Below are positions 8,725-41,475 of a DNA stretch of 44,376 nucleotides, piece by piece. The stretch spans positions 1 to 44,376 of the forward strand of contig CALVVG010000004.1 in the NCBI GenBank assembly GCA_944363795.1, in the 5' to 3' direction. Source of the stretch: an uncultured Bacilli bacterium. Its GTDB lineage: Bacteria; Bacillota_I; Bacilli_A; RF39; UBA660. The translations under genes and the position numbers were made by a program. Below the pieces are notes generated by a model. The model did no database searches, was not told the origin of the DNA, and worked only from the letters and a program-made list of their open reading frames with translations. The number at the start of each line of letters is the position of its first letter. The first letter of the stretch is position 1.

Positions 8725-9420
8725 AAGCCTTTTTAATATTTAAAATTAATGGTATAATTTTCAAAGAATAGGTGATTAAATTATGGTAAAAACAAAAAGA
8801 AATATTTTACTAGCAATAATCATAGTATTAATTCTTGTAGTAATAGCGTTATTGATAGGAAGATTCACATATTCATATTTAGCAGCTCAAACTAGTGAAG
8901 ATTTAAAAAATGAAGGAGAAACCACAGCAAGTGGAGATACAATAATTTTTAGTAAAGGTAATGATTTATCAATTAGTGCAACAACAGATAATTTTAATGC
9001 AACGAGTGGGAATTTAACTGATACTACTAATCCATCAGTAAGATTAGTGGCAAGTAGTAAAACAAATGAAGCAACAGCTACTTATTATGCTGGTATAAAA
9101 ATAAATAAAAATACTTATACTTATTCAGGTAGTGAAGCAGAACTAATATTGACGGTAAGAGATGAAACTGGGCAAATATTAACTACAAGTGCTGATGCCT
9201 TAGATTATGTAACGGTAAATGGAGTATCAGGTTTTGATATAACTGGAAAAACCGGAGCATTTAATATAGTTAAAGAACACTTAATTAGTACTAATTCATC
9301 AACTGCAGGAACAACACATACTTGGACATTTACATTGACATTTGTTAATTTAGATATAGATCAATCAATAAATGAAAATGCGGAACTAAGTATGGATGTA
9401 GTATTACAAAAAGACGAAAT
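8725..9420 (+). repeat. Direct repeat copy A (promoter plus type II anchor module)
   Basis: This stretch matches 10391-11086 at a constant offset of 1666 bases, with only scattered substitutions. It covers the extended -10 promoter, the leader and the first ~213 codons of the surface gene. Similarity stops abruptly where the C-terminal modules begin. Confidence 0.9.
8750..8758 (+). promoter_or_regulatory. Extended -10 promoter of surface gene at 8783
   Basis: TGG-TATAAT without a good -35. The same promoter region is duplicated before the gene at 10449, as TGT-TATAAT at 10416-10424. Confidence 0.6.
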
Positions 9421-10378
9421 AAAGTTGAGTTTGGCTGAACTATGTGATAAAAATTTTTTGACAGATTGTATTATTGAATGGTTATATACTGAAGATGGTA
9501 TAAATGATTTGTATTATCATGATGGAATGGGGGCTTATACAAATGCTTCTGAAGAAGCAGGTGATAATAGCTATCGCTATAGTGGAGCAGATCCAAATAA
9601 TTATGTTTGCTTTGGAAGTGATGAAGAAATATGTCCGGATAATAATCTTTATCGAATAATTGGATTATTTGATGATGATAAAGATGGGAAATATAAAGCT
9701 AAATTAATTAAAGCTGATTTAGCAAATAACGAATTATTAGGAGAAAATGGTAATTATAATACAAATGTATTTGTGGATACTGATTTAGAATATTATAAAG
9801 GAAAATTAAAAACGATAAATAGGTATTATTGGAATGATGACACTCAAAGTAATAACTGGAATGAAAGCGAATTAAATACGATTAATTTAAATGAAAATTA
9901 TATGAGTAGTATAAACAATAATTGGCAAAATTTAATAGATTATAGTAATTGGATAATTGGGGGTAATAGTATTGCAAATATATATGAAGTATCGGTTAAA
10001 AATGCATATAATTTTGAAATAATTACTCCAATAGATGCAACTAAATATTCTGATGAAATAGGACTAATGTATGTAAGTGATTATGGATATGCAGCCAGTC
10101 CTGAAAATTGGCAAACTATCTTATATGAATATGATAATGATTTAAATCGAAACAATAATTGGTTATATTTAGGCATTTTAGAATGGACAATTACAAGAAT
10201 AACTGATTATAATGATTATGTTTCTGGAATTAATTCTTCTGGTAGGGTTGGGTATGATTATATTGGTTATAGTGAAGCTGTTAGACCAGTATTTTATTTA
10301 AAAGAAAATGTAATATTAAATTCTGGAGATGGTACGATTAGTGATCCTTTTAGGATTATTTTGGCAAACAATGTTTAA
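8783..10378 (+). CDS. Surface-anchored lectin-like variable protein, type II anchor (copy 1)
   Basis: This is a 531-residue predicted extracellular protein. Residues 7-30 are a single membrane anchor. Residues 35-213 form a Ser/Thr/Asn-rich type II module with beta-strand character, almost identical to that of the next gene. The shared C-terminal module follows: YYHDG, Cys pair (NYVCFGSD and CPDNN), DDDKDG calcium-type loop, LMYVSDYGYAASPENW, and a variable Tyr/Gly/Ser stretch before AVRPVFYL. An extra Cys pair (LCDKNFLTDC) lies at the join, unlike the sister genes. GGTGAT stands before the ATG. The role is inferred to be ligand binding or adhesion at the cell surface. Confidence 0.75.
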   Translation: MVKTKRNILLAIIIVLILVVIALLIGRFTYSYLAAQTSEDLKNEGETTASGDTIIFSKGNDLSISATTDNFNATSGNLTDTTNPSVRLVASSKTNEATATYYAGIKINKNTYTYSGSEAELILTVRDETGQILTTSADALDYVTVNGVSGFDITGKTGAFNIVKEHLISTNSSTAGTTHTWTFTLTFVNLDIDQSINENAELSMDVVLQKDEIKLSLAELCDKNFLTDCIIEWLYTEDGINDLYYHDGMGAYTNASEEAGDNSYRYSGADPNNYVCFGSDEEICPDNNLYRIIGLFDDDKDGKYKAKLIKADLANNELLGENGNYNTNVFVDTDLEYYKGKLKTINRYYWNDDTQSNNWNESELNTINLNENYMSSINNNWQNLIDYSNWIIGGNSIANIYEVSVKNAYNFEIITPIDATKYSDEIGLMYVSDYGYAASPENWQTILYEYDNDLNRNNNWLYLGILEWTITRITDYNDYVSGINSSGRVGYDYIGYSEAVRPVFYLKENVILNSGDGTISDPFRIILANNV

Positions 10379-10390
10379 ATATTATAGAAT

Positions 10391-11086
10391 AAAGCTTTTT
10401 AATATTTAAAATTAATGTTATAATTATTAAAGAATAGGTGATTAAATTATGGCAAAAACAAAAAGAAATATTTTACTAGCGATAATCTTAGTATTGATTC
10501 TTGTAGTAATAGCGTTATTGATAGGAAGATTCACATATTCATATTTAGCAGCTCAAACTAGTGAAGATTTAAAAAATGAAGGAGAAACCACAGCAAGTGG
10601 AGATACAATAATTTTTAGTAAAGGTAATGATTTATCAATTAGTGCAACAACAGATAATTTTAATGCAACGAGTGGGAATTTAACTGATACTACTAATCCA
10701 TCAGTAAGATTAGTGGCAAGTAGTAAAACAAATGAAGCAACAGCTACTTATTATGCTGGTATAAAAATAAATAAAAATACTTATACTTATTCAGGTAGTG
10801 AAGCAGAACTAATATTGACGGTAAGAGATGAAACTGGACAAATATTAACTACAAGTGCTGATACTTTAGATTATGTAACGGTAAATGGAATATCAGGTTT
10901 TGATATAACTGGAAAAACTGGGGCATTCAATATAGTTAAAGAACACGTAATTAGTACTAATTCATCAACTACAGGAACAACACATACTTGGACATTTACA
11001 TTGACGTTTGTTAATTTAGATATAGATCAATCAATTAATGAAAATGCGGAATTAAGTATGGATGTAGTATTACAAAAAGATGAAAT
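10391..11086 (+). repeat. Direct repeat copy B (promoter plus type II anchor module)
   Basis: Partner of 8725-9420. The high identity at silent sites as well as coding sites suggests a recent tandem duplication or continuing gene conversion between the two surface genes. Confidence 0.9.
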
Positions 11087-11933
11087 TAATATGGGAAAAT
11101 TTACAGATTATATAATAAATAATATATATACACAAGATGGAGAAAATGGCTTATATTACCATGATGGTATAGGAACATATATTAATGCTGATCAAGAAGC
11201 AGGTGATAATTCATATCGCTATAGTGGTTCAAATCCAAATAACTATGTTTGTTTTGGAAGTGATGCAGCAACATGTCCAGCAAATAATTTGTATCGTATA
11301 ATCGGCTTATTTGACGATGATAATGATGGAGTGTATAATGTTAAATTGATAAAGTCAACTACTAATGGTCGAGCTATATGGGATGGAACATATGATGAGC
11401 ATAGCAATTTGTGGTCTGCAGATATAAAACCGGATATATATTATACTTTAAATACAGACTTTTGGAACACCTTAACATCACAATGGCAAAGTAAAATAGA
11501 TGCAACTTATCAGTGGAAAGTAGGAGGAATGACTTGGAATACTTCATATACAATTAAGCAATATTATGATGTGGAAGTAGGAACTAATCAAAATGGTTAT
11601 GTGGAAACAATGGCAATAGGATTAATGTATGTAAACGATTATGGTTATGCTTCTAGTCCTGAAAAATGGCTAGAGTCAATTGGTGATCCTAATGTTGAAA
11701 ATTATGGTGAAACTGATTGGTTATTTTCAGATAAATTAGAATGGCTATTAACCCGTACTTCTGATAGCTCAAATTTAGCATTTATTTTATACTCAGACAT
11801 GGGTGGTACAATTGATGGATATAACAGCGTTTATGCAGATTATGATATAAGACCAACGTTTTATTTAAAAAACGATGTTATGCTTAATGGTGGTACTGGT
11901 ACAGAAACTAATCCATATCGAATCAGTTTATAA
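10449..11933 (+). CDS. Surface-anchored lectin-like variable protein, type II anchor (copy 2)
   Basis: This 494-residue tandem paralogue of the preceding gene has the same membrane anchor and type II module (residues 1-213), joined to a different version of the shared C-terminal module. It contains YYHDG, Cys pair (NYVCFGSD and TCPANN), DDDNDG loop, VGGMTW, LMYVNDYGYASSPEKW and a variable stretch before DIRPTFYL. The C-terminal half is closer to the copies at 13422 and 40318 than to its own tandem neighbour, which points to module shuffling. It has its own extended -10 promoter. No terminator separates it from the liaF-like gene 20 bases downstream, so these are probably co-transcribed. Confidence 0.75.
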   Translation: MAKTKRNILLAIILVLILVVIALLIGRFTYSYLAAQTSEDLKNEGETTASGDTIIFSKGNDLSISATTDNFNATSGNLTDTTNPSVRLVASSKTNEATATYYAGIKINKNTYTYSGSEAELILTVRDETGQILTTSADTLDYVTVNGISGFDITGKTGAFNIVKEHVISTNSSTTGTTHTWTFTLTFVNLDIDQSINENAELSMDVVLQKDEINMGKFTDYIINNIYTQDGENGLYYHDGIGTYINADQEAGDNSYRYSGSNPNNYVCFGSDAATCPANNLYRIIGLFDDDNDGVYNVKLIKSTTNGRAIWDGTYDEHSNLWSADIKPDIYYTLNTDFWNTLTSQWQSKIDATYQWKVGGMTWNTSYTIKQYYDVEVGTNQNGYVETMAIGLMYVNDYGYASSPEKWLESIGDPNVENYGETDWLFSDKLEWLLTRTSDSSNLAFILYSDMGGTIDGYNSVYADYDIRPTFYLKNDVMLNGGTGTETNPYRISL

Positions 11934-13421: not shown

Positions 13422-14867
13422 ATGAAAACAAAAACACGAATAATATTATTAAGTATTATTGGAATATTAATAATTATAACTATTGTTTTAGGTGTAACTT
13501 ATGCATTTATGAGACCGGTGAAAGAATCAAGTTCAATAACTAGTGTAGATATTAAAAGTTGTGCTAAAATTACTCTAACTGATACGGGACAATCTATTAA
13601 TTTAAGTAATACATATCCGATGAGTAAAAATAAAGCACTACAAACAACTCCATACACTTTTACTGTAAGCTCTACATGTGAATCATATGTTGGATTTAAT
13701 TTATATTTAGCAACATTAAATACTAATACTATAGATGCCAGTAATATTCATTATATAGTAACTGAAAATAGTTCAAAAGAAATATTAGAAGAAGGTATTT
13801 TAGGAGATGCTACAAATGGATTAAGTGATTTTAATAGTGAAGAACAAGAACAATTAAATAATGGTATTAATGGAACATTTAGTCATGTTTATAAAATATA
13901 TGTAGGCAGTATTCCATATCAAGGAGAAGCAAGCTTTGATTTATATTTATATATAGATGGTGAAGTAACTGATAATACTACAATGGGTAAAACTTTTGTA
14001 GGTGGTGTTGCTGTTAAATCTATAGATAGAGAACCGGATCCAGAAATTACAACATTAGCAGATTATATAATAAATAATGTCTATACAACAGATGGCGAAA
14101 ATGGGTTATATTATCATGATGGAGTAGGAACATACACGAATGCTGATCAAGAAGCCGGAGATAATTCATATAGATATGCAGGGGCAGATCCTAATAATTA
14201 TGTCTGTTTTGGAAGCGATGCAGCAGCATGTCCAAATGATAACTTGTACCGAATCATAGGATTATTTGATGATGATCAAGATGGAACATATAATATTAAA
14301 TTAATAAAAAATACAAGTATTGGAAATTATGCTTGGGATAGTGAACGTGATAATACATGGGATGCAAGTACAAAACCAGATATAAGAAATACATTAAATA
14401 ATACATTTTTAGGAACAATAAATCCAACATGGCAAGATAAGATAGCAATACACATATGGAAAGTAGGAGGAATGGCTCAAGATAATTCAGCAACAGCAAA
14501 AGAATATTACAATACAGAAATAGGAAGTAGCTCAAGTAGTACAACAGATAGTATGAAAATAGGATTAATGTATGTAAGTGATTATGGATATGCAGCAGCA
14601 CCAAGTAATTGGACAACAGAATTATATAATTATGAAAGTGCAACAAGTACAAACTGGCTATATTTAGGTTCTCATGAATGGACAATTTCCCGCAGTACAG
14701 GCACTACGGTTTATGCCTTCTATGTGTACCTCACAGGGTATGTTTGCTACCGCGGCAACGACAATGTGACTTTTTCGTTTGCGGTGCGTCCGTCCTTCTA
14801 TCTAGAATCTAGTGTGAGCATTACTGGTGGAACAGGAACTTCGAGTGATCCTTACAAAATAGCTTAG
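13422..14867 (+). CDS. Surface-anchored lectin-like variable protein, type III anchor, GC-rich tip
   Basis: This is a 481-residue protein with a membrane anchor (residues 7-29) and a third kind of N-terminal module (residues 30-205), which carries CAKITLTDTG and an STCESY cysteine. The shared C-terminal module follows, with YYHDG, NYVCFGSD/ACPNDN, DDDQDG, VGGMAQ and LMYVSDYGYAAAPSNW. From codon CGC at 14691 onward the composition jumps from about one-third to about half G+C (56 of 110 bases in 14691-14800). This change falls exactly at the hypervariable tip before AVRPSFYL. The atypical block continues past the stop into two hairpins. The tip looks replaced or rewritten as a unit. Confidence 0.78.
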   Translation: MKTKTRIILLSIIGILIIITIVLGVTYAFMRPVKESSSITSVDIKSCAKITLTDTGQSINLSNTYPMSKNKALQTTPYTFTVSSTCESYVGFNLYLATLNTNTIDASNIHYIVTENSSKEILEEGILGDATNGLSDFNSEEQEQLNNGINGTFSHVYKIYVGSIPYQGEASFDLYLYIDGEVTDNTTMGKTFVGGVAVKSIDREPDPEITTLADYIINNVYTTDGENGLYYHDGVGTYTNADQEAGDNSYRYAGADPNNYVCFGSDAAACPNDNLYRIIGLFDDDQDGTYNIKLIKNTSIGNYAWDSERDNTWDASTKPDIRNTLNNTFLGTINPTWQDKIAIHIWKVGGMAQDNSATAKEYYNTEIGSSSSSTTDSMKIGLMYVSDYGYAAAPSNWTTELYNYESATSTNWLYLGSHEWTISRSTGTTVYAFYVYLTGYVCYRGNDNVTFSFAVRPSFYLESSVSITGGTGTSSDPYKIA

Positions 14868-24103: not shown

Positions 24104-24131
24104 AATATCCATTATGGTATTGCTTTTTTTT
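24104..24131 (+). terminator. alaS terminator, overlapping a decayed T-run promoter
   Basis: AATATC (24104-24109) pairs with GGTATT (24116-24121, one G-T) and is followed by GC and eight T. The T run and the following leader match the T-run promoters of the type I surface genes, but the -10 is missing. Confidence 0.65.
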
Positions 24132-24155
24132 ATGGGGAAAATTAGAGGTATGCTC

Positions 24156-24734
24156 ATGAAAAAAATAATAATAATAGGAATAACTATATTAACAATAATA
24201 TCAATAAGTGGTTATAAATATTTAGTAAATAAAGAAGAAAAAATAAATATAATAAAACCTAAAGATAATTTAAAAAATACTAATATATTAACAATGATGT
24301 TAGAAAATGAATCTGGAGTATATGAAGAAACAAATGCTAGTGAGTGGCCGACTGATGGTTATGTATTTAATGAAGTTTTAAGTAAATGCGAAAATGGTGG
24401 AATACTAAGTTGGGATAATGATACTAAAAAAGTAGTAATACAGTCAAATAAATCTGATAAATGTTATGTTTATTTTGATAAAGTTAATATAATAAATTTT
24501 ACTATTGATGCAGTGCAATATAGTGCGGAAAAAGATATGACATGGAAAGATTGGTTATCTAGTAAATATAATGTTGATAATTATAAGCAACACTGTACAA
24601 CTGATTATATAACTGGGCATGGAATTGTAGCATATTCTGGTAAAAATTTGGTAAGTGTATCAGAAATAATTTTGGAAAATAATAATTATATACATGCTAC
24701 AGGAGTCTTTTTAGAACCATGTGGACTATTATAA
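24156..24734 (+). CDS. Type I anchor surface protein with a different C-terminal module
   Basis: This 192-residue protein shares the membrane anchor and type I module of the genes at 123 and 40318: TMMLENESG, NASEWPTDGYVFNE, SKCENGG and DKCYVYFD. After that it changes to a short module starting INFTIDAVQYSAEKDMTWKDW, with two Cys (KQHC and EPC), and lacks the YYHDG/lectin part. It resembles a short domain used repeatedly on gut Bacillota surface proteins, recalled and not verified. ATG 24156 follows AGAGG. The upstream leader is homologous to the T-run promoters but has lost TATAAT, so this copy may be silent or read through from alaS. Confidence 0.68.
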   Translation: MKKIIIIGITILTIISISGYKYLVNKEEKINIIKPKDNLKNTNILTMMLENESGVYEETNASEWPTDGYVFNEVLSKCENGGILSWDNDTKKVVIQSNKSDKCYVYFDKVNIINFTIDAVQYSAEKDMTWKDWLSSKYNVDNYKQHCTTDYITGHGIVAYSGKNLVSVSEIILENNNYIHATGVFLEPCGLL

Positions 24735-38255: not shown

Positions 38256-38310
38256 TTAAATCACCTTTATTATATTGTATGTTTTTTTTATAAAAAGTAA
38301 TACTAATAAT

Positions 38311-40248
38311 ATGAAAAAGACATTATATGGAATCATAATAGTAATATTTTTAATATTAGGAATTAAAGTGTTTTTGGTAAAAAGTAATTCTACATATTAT
38401 AAAGAAAAGTTAGAAGAAAGAACTTTAGTGTATATTAATGGAGGTAGTGCTCCTAGAGGTAGAATATTAGATACTAATGGTAAAGTTTTAGTAGATAACA
38501 TAGGGGTTAAAACAATATATTATAATAAAGTAAAAGATATAACATATTCTGAAGAAGTAAAAATTGCTCAAACTTTAGCTAGTATAATTACGATTAAAGA
38601 AGGCTCTTTAGATAATTTAAAAGATTATTGGTTAATTTTAAACAATAATGGCCAAAATTTAATTAAAAATGCAGAATATAAATTATTAGAAGAAAGAAAA
38701 ATAGATAAAGAGTATTTAGAAAATTTAAAAAAAGAAAGAATTACTTCTGAAATGTTAGCAAAATTTACTGAAATTGATAAGAAAGCTGCTTATATATATA
38801 GTTTAATGAATGAGGGTTATATTTATAATAAAAAAGAAATATTGAAAAATGTATCAGAAGAAGAATTTGCTAAAGTAATAGAAACAAATATACCAGGTAT
38901 AACTGGAGAATTATCATGGGAAAGAATATATTTGTACGAAGATACTTTAAAAAACATTTTTGGCAAGATTGGAAATATTCCTAAAGAAAAAAAAGAAGAA
39001 TATTTAAATATGGGTTATGAATTAACAGATACTGTCGGACTTAGTTATTTAGAATTAGAATATGAAGAATATTTAAAGGGAAAAAAGGCTAAATATTTAG
39101 TTAATAATGATAATACTTTAACTTTAGTTGAAGAAGAACAAAAAGGAAATGATTTAGTTTTATCCATTGATATTGATATACAATTAAAGGTAGAAGAAAT
39201 TATTAAAGAAAAAATATTATTAGGAGATAAGTATCCTAATACCGAATATTACAAAGATTCTTATGCTTTAATAAGTGATCCTAATACAGGTAGTATTATT
39301 GCCATTGTTGGTTTAAGAAGAAATGATGACGATACTTGGAGTGATATTTCATTAAATGTTATCAATAAATCATTTACTATAGGTTCAGCTGTCAAAGGGG
39401 CAACAATAGCAGTTGGTTATAAATATAATCTAATAGACATGAATAAATATATTACTGATAGTTGTGTAAAGCTTTATTTAGTTCCACAAAAATGCAGTTT
39501 TAAAAGCTTAGGTAAAATAAATGATTTAAAAGCATTAGCTATGTCTTCCAATTATTATCAATATTTAATTGCTATAGGCATTACAGGAAATACTTATAAA
39601 CCTAATATGAAATTAAATGCAACGGAAGAACATTTTAATATTTATCGTAATATGTTAGCTAATTTTGGGTTAGGTGTTAAAACGGGTATCGATTTACCAG
39701 GAGAAACTATAGGTATTATTGGTAGTACTATTGCTGATGATTTACTTTTGAATTTGGCTATTGGACAATACGATACATATACGCCAATTGAAATATTACA
39801 ATATATTAATTCGTTAGCAACTGGTAATCGGACTAAGCTTTCTTTAATGAAAGAAATAAAAAATGAAAATAACATTATTTTAAAACAAAATCCTGAAGTA
39901 TTAAATAAAATAGATTTAGAAGATGTATATCTAAATAGAATTAGAGACGGTTTAAAATTAGTTTTAAGTGAAGGAACAGGAAGAATATATGTTGATAAAA
40001 ATATCAATGCAGCGGGAAAAACTGGTACAAGTGAATCTTTTTATGATTCAGATAATGATGGTAAAGTAGACGTAGCTACAATTACCTCAACTTTTGCTGG
40101 TTATTTTCCTTTTGATAATCCTAAATATAGTGTCGTAGTAATTACTCCTAACATATCACACAACAATGGTACGTCTGATACTATGTATTATGGTGCTAGT
40201 AAAATAACTAAAGATATCACAAATTATTTAAATGAGTTAAAAAAATAA
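38311..40248 (+). CDS. Class B penicillin-binding protein (transpeptidase)
   Basis: This 645-residue membrane-anchored transpeptidase cross-links peptidoglycan outside the cell. It has an N-terminal membrane segment (residues 5-25) and a dimerisation/pedestal domain with APRGRILDTNG. The transpeptidase domain has active Ser359 and Lys362 (SAVK), Ser412-Ser413-Asn414 and Lys570-Thr571-Gly572. Together these are a complete beta-lactam-binding set. It is probably a PBP2/elongation or SpoVD-like enzyme; no rodA/spoVE partner is near. The ATG at 38311 has no ribosome site, and a weak -10 lies close, so a leaderless message is possible. Confidence 0.92.
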   Translation: MKKTLYGIIIVIFLILGIKVFLVKSNSTYYKEKLEERTLVYINGGSAPRGRILDTNGKVLVDNIGVKTIYYNKVKDITYSEEVKIAQTLASIITIKEGSLDNLKDYWLILNNNGQNLIKNAEYKLLEERKIDKEYLENLKKERITSEMLAKFTEIDKKAAYIYSLMNEGYIYNKKEILKNVSEEEFAKVIETNIPGITGELSWERIYLYEDTLKNIFGKIGNIPKEKKEEYLNMGYELTDTVGLSYLELEYEEYLKGKKAKYLVNNDNTLTLVEEEQKGNDLVLSIDIDIQLKVEEIIKEKILLGDKYPNTEYYKDSYALISDPNTGSIIAIVGLRRNDDDTWSDISLNVINKSFTIGSAVKGATIAVGYKYNLIDMNKYITDSCVKLYLVPQKCSFKSLGKINDLKALAMSSNYYQYLIAIGITGNTYKPNMKLNATEEHFNIYRNMLANFGLGVKTGIDLPGETIGIIGSTIADDLLLNLAIGQYDTYTPIEILQYINSLATGNRTKLSLMKEIKNENNIILKQNPEVLNKIDLEDVYLNRIRDGLKLVLSEGTGRIYVDKNINAAGKTGTSESFYDSDNDGKVDVATITSTFAGYFPFDNPKYSVVVITPNISHNNGTSDTMYYGASKITKDITNYLNELKK

Positions 40249-40266
40249 AAATTTCAATTCCAATAA

Positions 40267-40296
40267 TTGATTTTTTTTTTTTTTTTTTTGTATAAT
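40267..40296 (+). promoter_or_regulatory. T-run promoter, candidate phase-variable switch (copy 2)
   Basis: TTGATT (40267-40272) and TATAAT (40291-40296) are separated by 18 bases. The spacer lies inside a run of 19 T (40271-40289). A short stem TCAATT/AATTGA ends at the -35, so the run may also be the terminator tail of the upstream PBP gene. The spacer is three bases shorter than in copy 1. Confidence 0.68.
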
Positions 40297-40317
40297 GGGA
40301 AAAATAGAGGTGTTGTC

Positions 40318-41475
40318 ATGAAAAAAATAGTAGTAGGAATAATATTAATTATTACAATAATTGGAATAGGAGCTTATAAATATATATTTAATAATAGAGA
40401 AGTAATACTTGATAAATCAAAAGAGCAGATTAAGAGTAATGACATTTTAACAATGATGTTAGAAACAGAAGCAGGTACTGGAATATATGAAGAAACTACA
40501 GCTAATGATTGGCCATCGGAAGGATATGTATTTAATGCAGAACTTTCTAAATGTGAAAATGGTGGAATAGTCACATTTAATGAAGAGACAAAAAAAATAA
40601 ATATGCAAACAAATATAAGTGATAAATGTTACGTTTATTTTGATATAGCTAATCAAACATTTGCTAATTATATTATTGAAAATGTATATACTGAAGACGG
40701 AGCAAATGGACTATATTATCATGATGGATTAGGAACATATACAAATGCTGATCAAGAGGCGGGAGATAACTCATATAGATATTCAGGGGCAGATCCAAAT
40801 AATTATGTTTGTTTTGGTAGTGAAGAGACAACATGCTCAGAGGACAATCTATATCGAATAATAGGACTATTTGATGATGATAATGATGAAATATATAATC
40901 TTAAATTAATAAAATCAACAAGATATGGAAGTTATGAACGGGATTCTGGAAATAGTAATACATGGAACGAAACAGAAAAACCAGATATACATACAACATT
41001 AAATACAACATATTGGAATACATTAAGTAGTGAATGGCAAAACTTGATAGATGCAACATACCAATGGCAAGTTGGTGGCATGGCATGGAATGGTACAAAT
41101 ACAGCAAAACTATATTATAATGTTGAAATAAAAAATCAAACCGGATATATAGAAACGATGAAAGTGGGATTAATGTATGTAAGTGATTATGGATATGCAG
41201 CCAGTCCGGAAAATTGGCAGACAGCATTATCAAATTATTCTAATACAACTAATACCAATAATAACTGGGTGTATTTAGGTGCAAATGAATGGACTATTTC
41301 ACGCAGATCGGACCTTCCAAACCCTGTGTTCTCCATATCGGATTCAGGCTCAATCTACGCCGAAGCCCTACGTTTTTTTGTGTGTATATATCGCCCATCG
41401 TTCTATCTCAATTCTGAAGTAAAACTTGTTAGCGGATCAGGTACATCAACAGATCCATATAGAATTTCCATTTAA
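40318..41475 (+). CDS. Surface-anchored lectin-like variable protein, type I anchor, GC-rich tip
   Basis: This 385-residue protein shares the leader, membrane anchor and type I module of the gene at 123 (TMMLETEAGTG, SKCENGG, DKCYVYFD). The shared C-terminal module follows: YYHDG, NYVCFGSE/TCSEDN, DDDNDE (calcium-type loop with the final Gly changed to Glu), VGGMAW and LMYVSDYGYAASPENW. From CGC at 41302 the composition rises to about half G+C (49 of 100 bases in 41301-41400). The tip differs from all other copies until YRPSFYL, after which the gene is AT-rich again. AGAGGTG precedes the ATG. It lies behind a T-run promoter. Confidence 0.78.
   Translation: MKKIVVGIILIITIIGIGAYKYIFNNREVILDKSKEQIKSNDILTMMLETEAGTGIYEETTANDWPSEGYVFNAELSKCENGGIVTFNEETKKINMQTNISDKCYVYFDIANQTFANYIIENVYTEDGANGLYYHDGLGTYTNADQEAGDNSYRYSGADPNNYVCFGSEETTCSEDNLYRIIGLFDDDNDEIYNLKLIKSTRYGSYERDSGNSNTWNETEKPDIHTTLNTTYWNTLSSEWQNLIDATYQWQVGGMAWNGTNTAKLYYNVEIKNQTGYIETMKVGLMYVSDYGYAASPENWQTALSNYSNTTNTNNNWVYLGANEWTISRRSDLPNPVFSISDSGSIYAEALRFFVCIYRPSFYLNSEVKLVSGSGTSTDPYRISI

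Follow-up and report, generated by a model that had tools for sequence, protein, structure and literature searches.

A homopolymeric T-run promoter module ahead of a DGR-target gene family in an uncultured Bacilli bacterium: a candidate phase-variation switch

Introduction

The vlp genes of Mycoplasma hyorhinis carry a homopolymeric A tract in their promoters, the length of which switches them ON or OFF (PMC10502178). In the vmm gene of Mycoplasma mycoides SC, a dinucleotide repeat is located in the promoter spacer, and the number of repeats sets expression (PMC10502178). The promoter homopolymer of meningococcal nspA works without a -35 element, so that spacing could be excluded as the cause in that case (PMC6389960), which calls for caution in any spacer-based reading of such runs. 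Diversity-generating retroelements (DGRs) have been described in Treponema denticola, where the DGR has core and remote target genes (PMC4891356), and DUF6273 has been described as a C-type-lectin-like domain that is DGR-targeted in phages (tentaclins) (PMC10743442).

Here we analyzed a stretch of DNA of 44,376 nucleotides (the window), which is contig C4 of G000, an 868-kb, 82%-complete metagenome-assembled genome (MAG) of an uncultured Bacilli bacterium known from metagenomes alone. As in vlp, we found a paralogous family of putative surface proteins whose genes have their own promoters with a pure homopolymer. Unlike vlp, the tract consists of T on the coding strand, occurs at many dispersed loci, precedes DGR-diversified targets, and in many cases adjoins a terminator hairpin, with the -35 region as the 3' arm of this hairpin; moreover, switching is a prediction here. 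At positions 40,267 to 40,296 of the window, the pure homopolymer lies between -35 and -10, and its length differs between copies and relatives, the features by which we provisionally place the gene among candidate vlp-type genes with a phase-variable homopolymer promoter spacer. Like vmm, the repeat is located in the promoter spacer, and one copy (contig C23) even has T20 plus a GT repeat; unlike vmm, we are dealing with a homopolymer and a multigene family. Similar to T. denticola, a DGR cassette is accompanied by several dispersed surface-protein targets, variable regions with changes specific to A and leftovers of cassettes that were lost, but the targets described here carry putative slippable promoters, and the T. 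denticola study contains no mention of promoter or phase variation (PMC4891356). The likeness to tentaclins is that DUF6273 was matched weakly by 5 of the 34 family domains and that the variable region lies inside the domain, but here the family is cellular, membrane-anchored and genome-wide.

Results

The plus strand at 40,267–40,296 reads TTGATTTTTTTTTTTTTTTTTTTGTATAAT, which corresponds to TTGATT-(T)17-G-TATAAT. The sequence and a promoter scan identified a -35-like hexamer (TTGATT, 40,267–40,272) and a -10 hexamer (TATAAT, 40,291–40,296). Between them, a run of 19 T (40,271–40,289) supplies 17 of the 18 spacer bases, and a single G at 40,290 separates the run from the -10. A ribosome-binding site (AGAGGTG, 40,306–40,312) follows within the conserved, family-wide leader GGRAAAATAGAGGTG, ahead of the gene at 40,318–41,475. 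A sister module is found at 68–100 on the same strand, with 22 T and a 21-base spacer, a count that comes from suspicious low-complexity sequence 68 bases from the contig start. A previous sequence-only reading of the window had proposed this layout and its 18-base spacer, and coordinates and counts were exact. The same holds for its claims that the sister run is three T longer and that the leader and first codons of the two genes are nearly identical. What it took for a pair of genes, however, is a family of more than 20 members.

Both loci in the window with runs of at least 12 T are these two promoters. We counted 19 overlapping matches to such runs compared to 1.8 expected, and none of 100 shuffled sequences reached 19. 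A generic promoter scan of the window was without significance (30 promoter-like sites vs. 34.5 in shuffled sequences). Despite this result, we accept 40,267–40,296 as a real promoter module, because it is repeated genome-wide at paralogues.

The segment is one copy of a module, composed of hairpin, -35, T run, -10 and leader, that recurs ahead of the DGR-target family. In G000, T-run promoter modules precede about twenty related surface-protein genes, and relatives of the window gene were matched in 37 stretches throughout the genome. The exact layout TTGATT(T)nGTATAAT was found seven times, and the reversed pattern used as a control not once. G000 contains 39 runs of at least 14 T; those inside contigs are intergenic and lie just upstream of family genes, and the remaining ones lie no more than about 200 bp from a contig end and are mostly recognizable as broken-off modules. 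When run lengths were tallied in 273 kb of G000, from overlapping stretches in which a few runs were possibly counted twice, we found 129 runs of 8 T, 9 of 9 T and 3 of 10 T, and then a second, separate class mostly of at least 18 T. With this bimodal distribution, the long T runs form a class of their own rather than the upper end of what an AT-rich composition produces. Seventeen of the 84 contig ends are located within 200 bp of a module (about 0.5 expected by position), as would be expected if the tracts are long or heterogeneous.

Only a small clade has the module; neither this restriction nor the link to a DGR-diversified family was part of the earlier reading. A family-wide scan of 386 genomes, a sample with five genus genomes but without G002, G007 and G009, matched G000 alone. 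The exact module pattern and the family protein had no match in viral contigs, and thus no phage origin is seen.

From 5' to 3', a module consists of a co-oriented upstream gene (in most copies), a hairpin (in many), TTGA, the T run, a G, the -10, the leader and the start codon. The -10 is either TATAAT or TGN-TAGTAT/TATTAT. Of 29 copies, about 13 lack the -35 or have a degenerate one; at 40,267 it is present. The 3' ends of the upstream genes mostly lie 17–48 nt ahead of the T run. Upstream of 40,267, the gene at 38,275–40,248 (plus strand) encodes a class B penicillin-binding protein (PBP), which is PBP2B-like (Pfam PF00905, 1.8e-41; PF03717, 1.9e-28; the best NCBIfam match is the PBP2B model, with a score under the cut-off of this model). 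Folding revealed a hairpin, TCAATT-CCAAT-AATTGA, at 40,254–40,270 on the plus strand, which may serve the PBP gene as terminator stem and whose 3' arm holds the -35 bases TTGA. This hairpin is weak (-2.0 kcal/mol, z -1.1). Strong hairpins at other copies include TCAATCC-N4-GGATTGA and TCAATCT-N4-AGATTGA, and TCAACCC-N4-GGGTTGA in the species G002/G007. The arm sequences vary between copies with pairing maintained, and these hairpins fold at -7 to -11 kcal/mol. Since the 3' arm is the -35 region in many modules, one T run would be terminator tail and promoter spacer at the same time. A role as terminator tail had been suggested earlier for the run behind the PBP gene. For the family as a whole, this predicted role is well supported by the adjoining hairpins and co-oriented upstream genes of many copies, whereas at 40,271–40,289 the hairpin is weak.

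The T run could also be a mere U tract of the upstream intrinsic terminator, with an ordinary promoter close behind and a length that has no regulatory meaning. The strong hairpins end exactly at the run and the upstream genes are mostly co-oriented and close by, as this explanation predicts. It also fits an exceptional internal run at C5:10704, where 20 T form a hairpin tail, no -10 lies directly behind it, and the promoter follows further on. Nevertheless, we consider this explanation unlikely: ordinary hairpin tails in G000 have 4–8 T, many copies lack a hairpin, some upstream genes are divergent, and the long runs are tied to a single protein family. In addition, the -10 begins within one or two bases of the run in most copies.

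In some family genes, the T-run promoter is followed, about 80 nt downstream, by another promoter of the ordinary type (TTGTAT-17-TATAAT, for instance). These sites are found at L098 2680–2580, in L099 near C6:21100–20950, and in L102 near C20:5500. On contig C20 of G000 just the downstream ordinary promoter is retained; the G009 counterpart has T22. On contig C23 of G000 (L094:1918–1950), T20 is followed by a GTGTGTGTG repeat ahead of TATAAT, which is a second slippable repeat type in one spacer.

The different T numbers had been regarded as a length polymorphism between paralogues. This is borne out in the family, with 17–39 T inside contigs; most internal copies have 17–23 T, and outliers have 27, 29, 30, 32 and 39. 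For comparison between species we used G009, a same-genus species (MAG of contig CALVUS010000058.1, uncultured Bacilli bacterium), whose DNA flanking the orthologous modules is about 82–83% identical to that of G000. The T counts in G000/G009 were 22/18 at the sister locus and 32/29, 21/22 and 26/19 at others, and 27/20 at one more locus with orthology by one-sided synteny. The run at 40,271–40,289 has 19 T in both. As to whether both window runs stay constant, the sister run varies between the two species compared and the run at 40,271–40,289 does not. The T run that the module carries between a TTGA-type -35 and the -10 is specific to the family and bimodally long, and it is retained in G009 at orthologous sites, at most of which its length has changed. 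When the copies were split, post hoc, by their -35, those with a TTGA-type element had shorter and tighter runs (median 19.5 T) than those without it (22 T; p = 0.001), and the same was seen for internal copies alone (19 vs. 22 T; p = 0.004). Such a difference is predicted by spacer function.

All homopolymer counts given here are consensus values of short-read MAG assemblies, with unreliable lengths, and short-read homopolymers are prone to error. The run lengths and their apparent polymorphism might accordingly be assembly or sequencing artefacts of a uniform T tract. Runs of 54–72 T, the lengths of which we did not rely on, occur at contig ends exclusively, several then passing into low-complexity noise, and the position of the 22-T copy close to a contig end points in the same direction. 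An artefact is nonetheless improbable, considering that long T runs are found at many internal sites of four separate genomes and that internal counts cluster at 17–22; the tract and the layout themselves cannot be artefactual. Slightly less probable still is a stiff A/T tract kept for strength as a fixed promoter element (UP-like or curvature) that does not switch: pure A/T tracts influence promoter geometry and extended -10 motifs in some copies lessen the importance of -35 spacing, but 17–39 uninterrupted T, the most slippage-prone form, would be unneeded, and G000 otherwise caps T runs near 8.

According to alignment and profile matches, the gene at 40,318–41,475 (plus strand) encodes a family surface protein of 385 aa with an N-terminal hydrophobic anchor and a C-terminal DUF6273-like domain. 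The alignment showed the anchor and a conserved C-terminal domain for the family proteins, which we infer to be exposed on the cell surface. A hypervariable segment lies in the C-terminal domain at residues 333–362, and the most variable columns of the family lie at the variable region (VR). Repeat comparison and column variability placed the VR-like region of this gene at 41,287–41,412 (plus strand), with a G+C content of 0.45 in an AT-rich gene. The protein itself is not among the five relatives with a weak DUF6273 match. An AlphaFold model based on a 7-sequence alignment was too poor (mean pLDDT 46), and the protein profile gave just spurious HSP90 matches (E 0.23) against solved structures.

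The family search also identified, all on the plus strand of the window, the sister gene behind the 22-T module (123–1,403), two paralogues without a T-run promoter (8,783–10,378 and 10,449–11,933) and a short paralogue without a T run (24,114–24,734). Template comparison revealed a further paralogue (gene at 13,422–14,867, plus strand) that has a DGR variable region at about 14,676–14,807 and no T run. The paralogues at 8,783 and 10,449 are tandem neighbours, nearly identical in their N-terminal halves and divergent in their C-terminal domains. At two orthologous loci (window 40318 vs. L117:2995; window 123 vs. L131:104), the leader and N-terminus are similar to those of a different paralogue, suggesting that family members have recombined with each other.

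The genome and the genus carry a DGR with A-specific differences between template repeat (TR) and VR, and the family is its target. The G000 cassette (C5:29367–32647; L090, L087) contains, in this order, a family target gene, a G+C-rich leader, the TR, an Avd-like ORF and a DGR-type reverse transcriptase (RT). The RT has an IGNMTSQ motif, and its best solved relative is 8ub7 (E 1.1e-21), which we take to be the BPP-1 DGR enzyme. DGR-type RTs were found in 23 of 30 genus genomes. The Avd-like ORF (78 aa) matched bAvd with an E value of 0.0022, which is weaker than the curated cut-off. In seven genus cassettes, 129 of 224 A sites but only 26 of 445 non-A sites differed between TR and VR; in G000, changes affected 44/96 A and 27/152 other sites (p = 2e-6). 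The cassettes of G002 and G007 are 98.3% identical over 5.2 kb and have one common template, but their VRs are changed at different adenines, indicating that the DGR was recently active there. In both, a T-run promoter (T18/T17) with a spacer of 17 bases lies directly on the DGR target gene. The TR on C5 is short and seems to have lost about 50 nt internally compared to its VR; as the G000 template repeats are truncated or internally shortened, current DGR activity in G000 is uncertain.

A remnant of a second DGR was observed on the minus strand of contig C19 (L098:1–2600), with a variable gene, a leader and two truncated template repeats, but no adjoining RT. Compared to the C19 template, the variable region of 13,422–14,867 is changed at 12 of 24 A sites and 3 of 38 other sites. 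The VR of 40,318–41,475 differs from short template A at 6/11 A and 3/16 other sites, and is likely of VR ancestry. It is 78% identical to that of the G009 orthologue, with flanks at 83%; as this is near the flank background, no recent rewriting is seen. Three RTs were considered as DGR enzymes, but two of them were rejected, being retron RTs (Ec107-like by PADLOC). They are located at L086:1360–2319 and L088:1261–2202, and one adjoins an ATPase-like gene.

Discussion

Slipped-strand phase variation of the promoter spacer, of the Mycoplasma vlp type and acting on DGR-target surface proteins, is the best explanation for these observations, and we regard it as reasonably probable. The T run is probably a slippage-prone on/off switch for individual family copies. 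Replication slippage within the run would alter the distance between -35 and -10; spacers of 17–18 bases would be transcribed, and longer ones would be weak or silent. By this rule, consensus counts predict that the gene at 40,318 (18 bases) is active and its sister (21 bases) weak, in line with the earlier proposal that one gene of the pair would be expressed and the other silenced. In a population, shifting subsets of surface proteins would be presented, with binding faces diversified by the DGR. The T run of many copies would double as the U tract of the terminator of the upstream gene; since a U tract is expected to work at any length above about 8, upstream termination would not be disturbed by switching. 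Overall, this mechanism appears likely, but the equal count of 19 T in both species at 40,271–40,289 speaks against it, and so do runs of 27–39 T and, in some copies, extended -10 motifs (TGNTAGTAT, for example), for which a -35 is not needed. Together with the second downstream promoters, the very long runs and extended -10 motifs imply that T-run length cannot gate every copy, and copies with an extended -10 or a second promoter may escape the switch.

More tentatively, with a chance that we put somewhat below even, the two features may form a two-layer system: the DGR would rewrite binding faces in many of the paralogues, and the choice of those to be expressed would fall to a slippable T run common to the terminator of the upstream gene and the promoter spacer of the target. 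The new part is the combination with DGR targets and a shared terminator. An open-access literature search for DGR combined with promoter phase variation found no report, which is weak evidence of absence. If true, one homopolymer would be common to terminator and promoter, and it would account for metagenome assemblies of this lineage breaking at module loci. Should the T runs indeed switch, two independent sources of diversity, DGR hypermutation and promoter phase variation, would act on one protein family in an uncultured Bacilli lineage.
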